A stretch of 5,434 nt of DNA from NCBI GenBank assembly GCA_003161755.1, contig PMNP01000344.1, forward strand, positions 7,906-13,339, written 5' to 3'. The notes beneath the pieces are model-generated. The model was not told the origin of the DNA and did not search any database. It saw nothing but the letters and a program-made list of their open reading frames with translations. The DNA comes from Ignavibacteriota bacterium (GTDB lineage Bacteria; Bacteroidota; UBA10030; UBA6906). Numbering within the stretch: the stretch's first letter is position 1; every line of letters starts with the position of its first letter. Shown here in pieces: positions 1,631 through 5,232 of the stretch. Made by a program: the position numbers and the translations under genes.

Positions 1631-1648
1631 AGCCGCAAGCACGTTAGG
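1631..1648 (+). repeat. Left arm of an 18-bp inverted repeat flanking the HEPN gene
   Basis: The arm AGCCGCAAGCACGTTAGG is matched at 17 of 18 positions by the reverse complement of 2592-2609. With the next base it ends in GTTAGGT (1643-1649), which fits the integron core-site consensus GTTRRRY. AGCCGCA lies 5 nt before it, as an L' box would. The likely ATG of the HEPN gene follows 11 nt later, the short leader typical of integron cassettes. Confidence 0.7.
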
Positions 1649-1660
1649 TATCGACATCCT

Positions 1661-2596
1661 ATGACCAGCGTACTCGACCAAATTGAAGTCATCTGTGATT
1701 TCATCAACAGCCCGAGAAAGCAACATCTACTTATTTCTCAAATGGCTGACTGGAATAAACTATGCAGTTCGCTTGATGTTGTTGGTGACACCGAACTTGC
1801 CATCGAATCATTTCTTAAGACTATCCAGCCCAAGTCTGATGGGGAGATGTATCTTGTGATCTACGGAATTCTCCAAGTCCTCTTTGTCCAACAAGATGCC
1901 GTTCAGCATATAGCAGAATCTTTAGCGATACATTATACACCCGACCCACTACTCGCAGAGATCCGAGAGATTCGCAATGCCTCAATCGGGCACCCTACTA
2001 AGAGGGGTTCAGGCAAAGGATCGGAATCCAACTTTATCAGCCGTCCTACTATGAGCTCGACCGGATTCCAACTTATGACCACTTACGCTGACAGAGTTCA
2101 GCCACAATTCACCTACATTGACATCCCGAAGCTCATCCAAACCCAAAGAGACAAGCTGAGTCAGCTTTTGTCAACCCTAATCCAGACACTGCGAGAAGAA
2201 GAGATGAATCACAGAATAGCATTCCAGGACGAGAAATTAACGGACATCTTCCCGCATACTCTCGACTATTATTGTGAGAAGATATATGAATCCATCCGGG
2301 GGAATATGCCCAAGACTTTTGGCTCAGGGATGGTTGACCTGATCAATAACCATCTCACTGAGTTCAAGGGCGCCCTTGATCGTCGGGACTTGTTTCAGGC
2401 ACTCGATAGCGTAAAATACCTATTTGACGAATTGAGCTATCCACTTGAGAAATTGAAAAAGTATTTTACGGATGCAGCCAATCCCACATTCAATGATAAG
2501 GATGCCCTAATATTTATCTTCTTCATCAGGCGGCATCTCGAGGGACTCCGAAGCATCGCTAAAGAGATCGACGCAAAGTACGCGGCCGAGCCCTAA
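1661..2596 (+). CDS. HEPN-type protein, predicted RNase (311 aa)
   Basis: The key feature is EIRNASIGHP, with RNASIGH at residues 105-111 (bases 1973-1993). It matches the HEPN ribonuclease motif R-x(4-6)-H with a polar residue directly after the Arg. A hydrophobic helix (about 63-83, MYLVIYGILQVLFVQQDAV) precedes it, as in HEPN folds, so RNA cleavage is the likely activity. The rest (about 150-305) is helical, with LREEEMNHRIAF near 177-188, and has no recognised domain. I recall similar uncharacterised proteins but no named family. Start 1661 gives 311 residues. The frame is open from 1607, but that extension runs through the inverted-repeat arm and is unlike protein. No clear Shine-Dalgarno site precedes 1661. 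The stop codon lies inside the right repeat arm. The predicted small RNA lies about 165 nt upstream. A toxin or abortive-infection role is inferred. Confidence 0.9.
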   Translation: MTSVLDQIEVICDFINSPRKQHLLISQMADWNKLCSSLDVVGDTELAIESFLKTIQPKSDGEMYLVIYGILQVLFVQQDAVQHIAESLAIHYTPDPLLAEIREIRNASIGHPTKRGSGKGSESNFISRPTMSSTGFQLMTTYADRVQPQFTYIDIPKLIQTQRDKLSQLLSTLIQTLREEEMNHRIAFQDEKLTDIFPHTLDYYCEKIYESIRGNMPKTFGSGMVDLINNHLTEFKGALDRRDLFQALDSVKYLFDELSYPLEKLKKYFTDAANPTFNDKDALIFIFFIRRHLEGLRSIAKEIDAKYAAEP

Positions 2597-2609
2597 CGTG
2601 CCTGCGGCT
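2592..2609 (-). repeat. Right arm of the inverted repeat, overlapping the HEPN stop codon
   Basis: CCTAACGTGCCTGCGGCT is the inverted partner of 1631-1648, with one mismatch at 2602. The TAA stop of the HEPN gene (2594-2596) lies within CCTAAC, the usual placement of a stop in the R'' box (RYYYAAC) of integron cassettes. Here the R position is C (2591), so the match to consensus is incomplete. The 57-nt repeat below overlaps this arm from 2602. Confidence 0.7.
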
Positions 2610-2747: not shown

Positions 2748-2785
2748 AATGGCAATCGTTGCAGGCAACATTAAGAGTCGGAAAC

Positions 2786-3595
2786 ATGGGTTCGGCTAAT
2801 CGAGATGCGGTGCGCTTCGCCGCAGAAGAACTAACCCACATCTGCCAGCAACTTGCTAACACCAGCACTGGATTGACCGGCTCAGAGATCGGCTACGTTC
2901 TCAAGCAGATTGGTGTCGAGGATAATGATCCCACCAACACAAAATGGCGGAGGCTGTTTAATGCCTTGGTTGACCGCCAGAATCGGGACCAAAAGGGTAA
3001 CATTGTTCTGGCTTGCATTGCCAAGGCTCTGGCTCCAGCCAGATATGTTGGGAATCGGGCGCTCTACGAACAGAAGTTGGAGAGTGTGAATGTCATTCTC
3101 GCTTTTAAGGGTCTGAGATTTCAGGATGATGGCAAATTCCACAACATTGACAAAGCGGCTAGCTTAACCGATGCAGAAGCGCGTGCCTCACGTTTGAAAG
3201 AGGATTTCGTCACACGCAATTTGCATCCAGAGCTTCTTCGCTTCTGCAAAGCCGAGCTTGTCGCCGATAATTATTTTCACGCAGTTCTCGAAGCAACAAA
3301 AGGTATAGCCGAGACGGTAAGGAGCATTACCGGGCTAGCAAGCGATGGAGCTGCTCTTATTGATGACGCCTTCGGCGGAGACAACCCAAGAATCAAGATC
3401 AATTCATTGCGGACTGATACAGAGCAATCAGAGCAACGAGGTTTTGTGAATCTGGCAAAGGGTTTGTTCGGCACGTTTCGGAACCCAACAGCCCATGCGC
3501 CCAAGATTCTGTGGCAAATGACGGGTGAAGATGCACTTGACCTCTTCACTTTAGCATCTTATGTTCTCCGACGTATCGACAATCGAGTGAAGTGA
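2786..3595 (+). CDS. TIGR02391 (Ymh-type) HEPN-family protein (269 aa)
   Basis: The C-terminal 120 residues (about 147-264) match what I know of the TIGR02391/Hypoth_Ymh family, in order: LHPELLRFCKAEL, DNYFHAVLEATKG, TGLASDGAALIDDAFGG, TEQSEQRGF, GLFGTFRNPTAHAPKI and DALDLFTLASYVLRRID. RNPTAH (232-237, bases 3479-3496) is an R-x4-H HEPN motif with Asn after the Arg, so RNase activity is plausible. The N-terminal half (about 25-140; GLTGSEIGYVLKQIGV, TKWRRLFNAL, LAFKGLRFQDDGK) looks like a target-sensing or regulatory domain of the kind seen in full-length family members linked to AbiJ-type abortive infection. I start at ATG 2786, with a modest purine-rich AAGAG about 8 nt upstream. A TTG at 2759 extends the frame but lies in a palindrome and lacks a ribosome site. 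The gene appears intact and full length. Confidence 0.94.
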   Translation: MGSANRDAVRFAAEELTHICQQLANTSTGLTGSEIGYVLKQIGVEDNDPTNTKWRRLFNALVDRQNRDQKGNIVLACIAKALAPARYVGNRALYEQKLESVNVILAFKGLRFQDDGKFHNIDKAASLTDAEARASRLKEDFVTRNLHPELLRFCKAELVADNYFHAVLEATKGIAETVRSITGLASDGAALIDDAFGGDNPRIKINSLRTDTEQSEQRGFVNLAKGLFGTFRNPTAHAPKILWQMTGEDALDLFTLASYVLRRIDNRVK

Positions 3596-3610
3596 CACTT
3601 TATGCAACAA

Positions 3611-3667
3611 CTGCCGCTAACTGCACCGGGCACGGCGTTCGTTCATCTGCAAAGGCAGAGTTCGAAC
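3611..3667 (+). repeat. Structured post-gene repeat, copy 2
   Basis: It begins CTGCCGCTAAC 15 nt after the stop codon, has TTCA (3642-3645) exactly 20 nt after TAAC, then CTG, AAGGCAG, GTT and AAC boxes. It matches copy 3 at about 37 of 57 positions without gaps. TTCATCTG (3642-3649) pairs perfectly with CAGATGAA (3679-3686) across 29 nt. The loop contains the 10-bp palindrome AGTTCGAACT (3659-3668). The element continues into a C-rich hairpin (3691-3721). Confidence 0.65.
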
Positions 3668-3690
3668 TGACGCAACGACAGATGAAGTTC

Positions 3691-3721
3691 TCCCTCCACC
3701 CCGTCGCGGGGTAGGAAGGGA
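3691..3721 (+). promoter_or_regulatory. Hairpin that can hide the ribosome-binding site of the membrane-protein gene
   Basis: ACCCCG (3698-3703) pairs with CGGGGT (3707-3712) around a TCG loop. The stem extends through TCC (3695-3697) with GGA (3714-3716) and TCCC (3691-3694) with GGGA (3718-3721), with single bulged A residues at 3713 and 3717. The right arm contains the Shine-Dalgarno-like GGAAGGG directly before ATG 3723. Formation of this stem in the mRNA should block initiation, so it may act as a translational switch; alternatively it is only the 3' part of the repeat. Confidence 0.5.
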
Positions 3722-3722
3722 A

Positions 3723-4199
3723 ATGAGCCATTCGCTAACGTCGCCCGCCTCCCGATCAAATGTTCCTATGAAAGGACTGGCTGTGGAAACGAAGGATGCA
3801 TTGCTTCTGATTCTACCCGTACTGTCAGGAATTCTTGGCAGCTACTTCACGTACTTTTTTGCAGTACGTTCTAGAAGGCAAGAAGCCATTCTACGATTCA
3901 AAGAAGAAAAGTACTCCGCCTTGCTCGTTTTGCTGCAAGGATTTGTGGGCGTGACCGCTTCAGCGAATACGAAGCGCCAGTTCTTTGAGGAACAATACAG
4001 ATCATGGATCTATTCCTCCGACGAGGTGGTCAAATCAATAAATCAGTTGATCAAACTCGTGGTCGACTCACGAGGACAACAGCCGAATCTTCATGCAGGC
4101 AGACAAGCTGTCGGCAATATCGTTTTGGCCATGCGAAAGGACCTGCTCGGCAAGACTAATTTGTCATTCGACGACTTTCTTTATACCGATGTTCACTAA
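3723..4199 (+). CDS. Small single-pass membrane protein of unknown function (158 aa)
   Basis: One hydrophobic segment (about residues 26-48, ALLLILPVLSGILGSYFTYFFAV) is followed at once by RSRRQ. By the positive-inside rule this predicts a cytoplasmic C-terminus anchored to the inner membrane. The cytoplasmic part (50-158) is helical, with a charged stretch RFKEEKYSALLVLLQ (58-72), and has no catalytic motif I can identify. Start 3723 is chosen for the strong GGAAGGG site just upstream; an internal ATG at 3768 (residue 16) would still include the membrane segment but has no site. The family is not recognised. Many short membrane-anchored proteins of this general shape sit in defence or cassette regions, some as membrane-damaging effectors, but nothing here shows that. 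It has its own long flanking gaps, 127 nt upstream and 187 nt downstream. Confidence 0.82.
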   Translation: MSHSLTSPASRSNVPMKGLAVETKDALLLILPVLSGILGSYFTYFFAVRSRRQEAILRFKEEKYSALLVLLQGFVGVTASANTKRQFFEEQYRSWIYSSDEVVKSINQLIKLVVDSRGQQPNLHAGRQAVGNIVLAMRKDLLGKTNLSFDDFLYTDVH

Positions 4200-4211: not shown

Positions 4212-4268
4212 CTGCGCATAACAACCGCAATCATGACGCTCATTCACCTGTGAAGGCAGGGTTGTAAC
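4212..4268 (+). repeat. Structured post-gene repeat, copy 3
   Basis: It begins CTGCGCATAAC 12 nt after the stop codon, with TTCA (4243-4246) exactly 20 nt after TAAC, then CCTG, GAAGGCAG, GTT and AAC. ACAACC (4221-4226) pairs with GGTTGT (4260-4265). CACCTG (4245-4250) can pair with CAGG-AG-TG (4278-4285) across 27 nt, the same layout as copies 1 and 2. ACCGCAA (4224-4230) also pairs with TTGCGGT (4340-4346), closing a fold over the whole 120-nt region. Confidence 0.62.
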
Positions 4269-4386: not shown

Positions 4387-5232
4387 ATGAATGACTCGAC
4401 GTCTATTGCTAGCATAGGTGATCTTTCCAAGCCTGCCAATACGCTTATAGAAAAGATATCTGATGCTATAGGAGGTATCTTCAAACCGTATCAGATCAGG
4501 AGGATTGCTCAAGCTGAAGCGGAGGCGGAAAAGATACATGCCGTTGCATCAATGGAAGTGACCGAGCTGCAGCGTCGTGCTTTGCATCGGTTTATTGCTG
4601 AAGAGGCAAAAAGACAGCAGAACATTGAATCCATTACGAAAAGGGCAATAGCCGAGGTTAGCGACAAGGCAAGTCCAGAGAAACTAGAAGATGACTGGAT
4701 TGTGAACTTCTTTGATAAATGTCGGCTCATTTCTGATGAACAAATGCAGGGCCTCTGGTCAAGGATTCTCGCTGGAGAAGCAAACTCACCCGGGAAGTAT
4801 TCGAAAAGGACTGTTAATCTTCTAGCTTCACTCGACATGAACGATGCTGAATTATTTTCGAGACTTTGTTCTTTCATGTTTGTAATCCAAAGCTTTGTGC
4901 CCTTGATCTATGATGTTGAGCACCCCATTTACAACGATCACGGGATCAACTTCAATGTCTTATCTCATCTGGAGAGCATTGGACTCATCCAGTTCGAGAA
5001 TTTAGCCGGGTTCATCCGAAAAAGCCTGCCTCAGAGAACAACTGTTTCTTTCTACATGACAGAGGTGGCTATCGAATTCCCATCCCCTTCTGACAATGAG
5101 ATGCGGATTGGATCTGTTCTTCTAACTCAAGCTGGACAACAGCTTGCCCCAATTTGCGGTTCATTGCCGAGAGAAGGATTCCTAGACTATGTGAAAGGAC
5201 TCTGGCAGAGTTTTGGTTACAAGGTAGAATGA
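4387..5232 (+). CDS. DUF2806-like protein (281 aa)
   Basis: The middle of the protein matches my recollection of the DUF2806 family: AKRQQNIESITKRA (74-87), DDWIVNFFDKCRLISDEQMQ (102-121), LWSRILAGE (123-131), PGKYSKRTVNLLASL (135-149) and DAELFSRLC (153-161), then LLTQAGQQLAPICG (245-258). The LW-x-LAGE block resembles the Abi-alpha/DUF4393 type of helical defence-associated protein, though a common origin is not shown here. Residues 36-75 form a charged coiled-coil-like helix, preceded by a small Ala/Gly/Ile-rich segment (23-32). There is no signal peptide or clear membrane span. The molecular role is unknown. Start 4387 has TAGGA 4 nt upstream. It is the last full gene of the plus-strand block, separated from the membrane-protein gene by 187 nt of structured repeat, so co-transcription is uncertain. 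It appears complete. Confidence 0.9.
   Translation: MNDSTSIASIGDLSKPANTLIEKISDAIGGIFKPYQIRRIAQAEAEAEKIHAVASMEVTELQRRALHRFIAEEAKRQQNIESITKRAIAEVSDKASPEKLEDDWIVNFFDKCRLISDEQMQGLWSRILAGEANSPGKYSKRTVNLLASLDMNDAELFSRLCSFMFVIQSFVPLIYDVEHPIYNDHGINFNVLSHLESIGLIQFENLAGFIRKSLPQRTTVSFYMTEVAIEFPSPSDNEMRIGSVLLTQAGQQLAPICGSLPREGFLDYVKGLWQSFGYKVE

Follow-up and report, generated by a model that had tools for sequence, protein, structure and literature searches.

The locus analysed here raises the question of why one gene of an Ignavibacteriota bacterium should be framed by two inverted copies of the same short sequence, one just before its start codon and the other over its stop codon. A sequence-only reading had likened the arrangement to the geometry of an integron cassette, or to the terminal repeats of a small mobile unit. 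The window, by which we mean the whole stretch of 5,434 bp that was analysed, carries four plus-strand genes in a row which are separated by gaps of approximately 170–190 nt (Table 1). The gaps are designated A (between genes 1 and 2), B (genes 2 and 3) and C (genes 3 and 4). On balance we lean, without great conviction, towards gene 1 being an atypical integron cassette, or a former one, in an array that lacks an integrase and belongs to an uncultured bacterium.

Table 1. Features of the window discussed in the text, in order of position
Feature	Position	Strand	Basis
Left arm of the 18-bp inverted repeat, AGCCGCAAGCACGTTAGG	1631-1648	+	Repeat search and shuffles
GTTAGGT, R'-like cassette core, 11 nt 5' of the ATG at 1661	1643-1649	+	Sequence; anchored-end tests
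Gene 1, 311 aa, HEPN-like, RNx4H motif	1661-2596	+	Homologue search, alignment, motif count
CCCTAAC, R''-like box with the stop TAA (2594-2596) inside	2591-2597	+	Sequence; anchored-end tests
Right arm of the 18-bp inverted repeat, CCTAACGTGCCTGCGGCT	2592-2609	+	Repeat search and shuffles
GTTGCAG, possible 5' core of gene 2, weak	2758-2764	+	Own-end test, p 0.043
Gene 2, Hypoth_Ymh/TIGR02391, HEPN family, PD-Lambda-3_B-like	2786-3595	+	Profile searches, motif
ATGCAAC, possible R'' of gene 2, weak	3602-3608	+	Own-end test, p 0.043
Gene 3, 143 aa	3768-4199	+	Homologue search; own-end test
GCATAAC, R''-like word 3' of gene 3, no partner GTT found	4216-4222	+	Sequence
Gene 4, DUF2806, no cassette-end signal	4387-5232	+	Profile search; own-end p 0.82

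The inverted repeat and the core-like sites at the edges of gene 1

As had been claimed, the two arms (1631-1648 and 2592-2609) are inverted copies of one another with 17 of 18 positions matching, and the repeat extends to 23 nt at 87% match (1631-1653 and 2587-2609). There is no second 17/18 inverted pair anywhere in the window, and a pair of this quality was present in one of 150 dinucleotide-shuffled windows. The flank-alignment score of gene 1 is 31, a value above the maximum of 28 obtained for 541 mismatched combinations of upstream and downstream flanks from homologous loci. That one shuffled window in 150 has such a pair, and that the finding was selected from many windows, argue for the main rival explanation, namely that the repeat is unrelated to integrons and represents a coincidence, or a fold-back formed by chance at the gene edges. 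We regard this as possible but rather unlikely: the arms sit on both edges of the gene, which in true cassettes of this family is the place of the cores, and the GTT/AAC-anchored pairing, taken by itself, gives a p value of 0.002.

In Fibrobacter (L023, gene at 149-1033) a gene 1 homologue is flanked by an imperfect 28-nt inverted repeat which overlaps the stop codon; its flank score of 30 is also above the mismatched-pair maximum of 28.

The GTTAGGT core does lie 11 nt before the ATG (1643-1649), a start codon which is backed by the alignment of homologues, and the stop codon is indeed located inside the core word of the right copy, with TAA (2594-2596) falling within CCCTAAC (2591-2597). The complementary GTT-type 5' core and AAC-type 3' core at the ends of gene 1 are GTTAGGTATCG and CGAGCCCTAAC. 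Such ends were scored with an anchored-end test, which asks if the GTT... before a gene pairs with the ...AAC after it. The gene 1 pair scores 7, a value attained by 4.2% of mismatched pairs. In an own-end test by shuffling the p values were 0.002 for gene 1, 0.043 for gene 2, 0.084 for gene 3 (using a different AAC from that in GCATAAC, 4216-4222) and 0.82 for gene 4; for the genes other than gene 1 the signal is suggestive only.

The weak points conceded in the sequence-only reading also stand. The next gap contains no GTTRRRY, the candidate nearest gene 2 being GTTGCAG (2758-2764); the R''-like box begins with C, which is off consensus; and family searches found no integrase among the proteins of the window. 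In a relative, a well-formed attC-like site (L006:2074-2158) has the word CCCTAAC for its R''.

If gene 1 is a cassette, one of its ends would be G^TTAGGT, located 11 nt 5' of the ATG, and the other CCCTAAC, which overlaps the stop codon. In the cassette circle a single attC would lie between these two ends, with the ends pairing to form the R arm of that site; insertion would have been carried out by IntI, with cleavage at G^TT. This pairing would explain why the arms are inverted copies.

By its geometry alone the repeat would also suit a small transposon-like unit with inverted repeats at its termini, or an invertible segment bounded by the two arms. There is no target-site duplication outside the arms, the flanking sequences ...CAGTACTA and AACGAACG... 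having no common direct repeat, and no recombinase or transposase family was found among the window's proteins. Copies of the arm are absent from 115 loci, and three matches in viral_contigs may be due to chance. With target duplication and transposase both absent, the suggestion that these are the ends of a mobile unit was not borne out, and we consider it the least probable of the readings discussed here.

attC sites in the window

Our attC detector is a loosened version of an earlier, strict one which found almost nothing in six relatives. Applied to 20 intI-flanking stretches it reported 85 sites in the array direction and 29 in the opposite one, with approximately 30 in shuffles, and it gave p <0.05 in 8 of 14 positive controls. 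Its best candidates in the window had p values of 0.32 upstream of gene 1, and of 0.57, 0.35, 0.33 and 0.58 in gaps A, B, C and D, respectively. A stem test, with p <0.05 in 8 of 9 controls, returned 0.82 for the upstream flank and 0.24, 0.23 and 0.37 for gaps A, B and C. At a looser threshold the plus strand of the window yielded just three attC hits, which is the chance level. Candidate canonical attC sites picked out by eye in gaps A–C were rejected since none beat shuffles, and an attC covariance model of our own was abandoned because alignments A2 and A3 had their L' arms out of register.

No complete attC (R'', L'', L', R') was found 3' of gene 1, and the attC searches of the window's gaps located no partner half-site for either arm. 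Clusters of attC without an integrase are referred to as CALIN (PMC9024848, PMC9668308), the definition being at least two attC with intI absent nearby (PMC9024848); with zero significant attC in five intergenic stretches the window does not fall under this definition.

Some signals of other kinds were recorded in the gaps. A stem with a 3-nt bulge in gap A gave a p value of 0.017 under rules which were fixed after the stem had been seen. The word TAAC is over-represented in gaps A–C (6 occurrences vs 2.1 expected, p 0.019). In single-strand folding, gap B surpasses shuffles on both strands and gap C does so on the plus strand; gap A and the upstream flank (minus strand) fold no better than shuffles.

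In real attC sites the central spacer is described as unpaired (PMC8946536). Considered box by box, the arms of gene 1 pair at 6 of 7 positions in R, 4 of 5 in the spacer and 7 of 7 in L, for a total of 17/19, and they thus do not possess an unpaired spacer; the test is indirect, since these arms would belong to two sites or to one split site. Among 38 consecutive attC-like pairs from reference arrays the spacer paired at 0–3 of 5 positions and the total was at most 13/19. This comparison was ungapped, so that L arms carrying an extrahelical base score too low, and some of the sites in it are due to chance. Spacer pairing was likewise 0–3 of 5 in 40 single attC-like sites. L'-like and L''-like boxes had been reported 5 nt from the cores; with arms that pair through the spacer (4/5) and no significant attC in any gap, that assignment is not supported. 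The continuous pairing through the spacer and the missing attC partner halves speak for a repeat unrelated to integrons.

The missing partners would also be expected if one attC had been split, with its halves now facing outwards as the two arms. The cassette circle would in that case have opened within the hairpin loop and become joined to the chromosome independently of IntI. The arms would then match each other and nothing else because the circle opened in the loop. They do match mutually (17/19 over R, spacer and L) and neither side has a partner half, yet this is a single example, the spacer is paired, unlike that of attC, and a limited literature search found no such route. We judge a split attC to be highly improbable. 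Were it true, it would constitute a second exit of cassettes from integrons, overlooked by attC-finding programs, and cassettes would escape from integrons more often than is counted.

Relatives of genes 1 and 3 beside integron integrases

A scan of species genomes revealed 68 gene 1 loci, 54 of which were used in the flank tests, the 14 with partial matches being dropped. An end score of at least 9 was obtained for 9 of the 54 homologous loci vs 0.67% of mismatched pairs; the other 45 scored below 9. The nine high scorers are from Shewanella, Psychromonas, an Acidobacteria MAG, Calditrichota, Gilvimarinus, Zhongshania, Pyrinomonadaceae, Desulfofervidaceae and Alteromonas. At the Pyrinomonadaceae locus (L004/L089), a distance of 491 nt separates the start of the gene 1 homologue from an intI match (TIGR02249, 459.7 bits). 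There, attC-like sites of one type are located before the homologue (L089, 390-474) and after it (1447-1560, 2621-2734, 3240-3353 and 3653-3765). The Calditrichota locus (L006) has adjacent homologues of genes 1 and 2 in the same order as in the window, with an attC-like site 3' of each. Its gene 2 homologue fails the own-end test (p 0.63), and the best intI match in that genome carries two stop codons. The gene 1 family rides on integrons in other genomes.

Of 66 genomes which carry a gene 1 homologue, 20 have an intI match above the cut-off (13/26 and 8/41, one being shared). This was rejected as support, the proportion not being enriched vs that in Acidobacteriota at large (46/149); the presence of intI at the genome level is no evidence by itself.

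Gene 3 has 551 homologues. The 120 listed are 58–100% identical and come from many bacterial and some archaeal lineages. One homologue (60% identity) is the first gene after intI, on the same strand and approximately 200 nt 3' of the intI match (G522:C36:54180-55729; L119, L120). Its ends, GTTATCTGA and TCAGATAAC, are complementary over 9 nt. It is the sole hit in 395 genomes of its phylum, and no homologue of gene 3 was found in 66 further genomes. The detector showed no clear attC array in L120, with 15 sites vs 9–13 in shuffles.

The spread of gene 3 is unusual for an unnamed protein, and 15 Leptospira plasmid records carry it. A gene 1 homologue in a Methanophagales archaeon (L014:3017-4030) has cassette-type ends with a score of 8, and is followed by an attC-like site (p 0.017).

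The comparison of gene 1 with an integron cassette can thus be upheld in part. Homologues of genes 1 and 3 are cassettes elsewhere, the cores are placed alike with respect to start and stop codons, and the end pair in the window is non-random (p 0.002; 4.2%). The part which did not hold concerns attC, there being no significant site, a paired spacer and missing partner half-sites. We infer that IntI once moved the window's copy of gene 1, and that its attC has either decayed or is of a kind that our detector misses. The likeliest account of gene 1 is that of a gene cassette which is worn or atypical, and not of something new.

As in cassette arrays and CALIN, the window contains short genes on the same strand, gaps of some 170–190 nt, integron-borne families and, for gene 1, complementary ends; unlike them, it has no recognised attC, its arms are paired through the spacer and there is a single clear core pair. 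Unusual cassettes of the Delta-attI type are reported to be mobile even without a canonical attC (PMC12901181), and the gene 1 unit is like them in having no recognised canonical attC. Integron carriage is now tied to an unnamed HEPN-like family (488 homologues) and to the small, widespread gene 3 family (551), and gene 1 is a cassette-like gene which a search for attC alone would not call.

The gene products and the remainder of the window

The protein search with gene 1 yielded 488 homologues, among them proteins with 89, 85 and 71% identity; the lineages among the 120 listed include Pyrinomonadaceae, Eisenbacteria, Syntrophales, other Acidobacteria, Ignavibacteriaceae and an archaeon. Across 42 aligned members of the family R105 and H111 never vary, and R[NDH]x3-5H is matched by 40 of them. 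A motif of the Rx4-6H type has been described for HEPN RNases (PMC3710099), and gene 1 possesses Rx4-6H with a polar residue after R. No family in Pfam or PADLOC describes gene 1. At E 0.01 each hit among the 42 members was confined to a single member, and Pfam HEPN families were absent. The AlphaFold model has a pLDDT of 88.5, and its listed PDB matches are generic helical folds; HEPN chains are absent among the matches listed, a result which excludes nothing. Of the solved chains, none matched the family profile with an E value of 0.1 or lower, and this holds for 3jrt as well. The HEPN assignment therefore rests on the motif. Gene 1 probably specifies an RNA-cutting HEPN-type protein, and the product may be a HEPN RNase which functions in defence or dormancy. 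Toxin-antitoxin and phage-resistance functions are described as common on cassettes (PMC9668308).

An “Integron cassette HEPN” family (PDB 3jrt) has already been published (PMC3710099). Gene 1 resembles it in encoding a HEPN-type motif protein on a cassette-like unit, and differs from it in that its profile has no match to 3jrt (E 0.1); it probably belongs to another HEPN family. No publication on the gene 1 family was found in a limited literature search, of a kind known to miss relevant papers. Neither gene 1 nor gene 3 has a relative in viral_contigs.

Gene 2 matches PF09509 with 139.4 bits (cut-off 25) and carries the HEPN motif RNPTAH, as expected of the Ymh HEPN family, which is present on 121 plasmid records. 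Homologues of gene 2 were found in 2 of 34 genomes and those of gene 4 in 5 of 34; no attC was seen in the flanks of L108 and L109 when these were read by eye. In Calditrichota, the two neighbouring HEPN genes of the array (L006:198-2079) may work together.

Searches with the window's DNA found neither a high-identity match among plasmid records nor, in sensitive mode, a match among phage records, and the minus-strand ORFs (23-316 and 382-1182) gave no family above the cut-off. Gaps B and C share a direct repeat of 27 nt (3636-3662 and 4237-4263, approximately 78% alike) which contains a small CTGC/GCAG hairpin. Neither viral_contigs nor the 115 loci contain a match to it, and plasmids gave none for gap B. 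The minus-strand ORF at 382-1182 specifies 266 aa, and its sole match in 5.8 billion proteins is one shorter copy with 100% identity. Lastly, a terminator-like hairpin (GCCCC...GGGGC followed by TTTT) is located at 1456-1485, between this minus-strand gene and gene 1.
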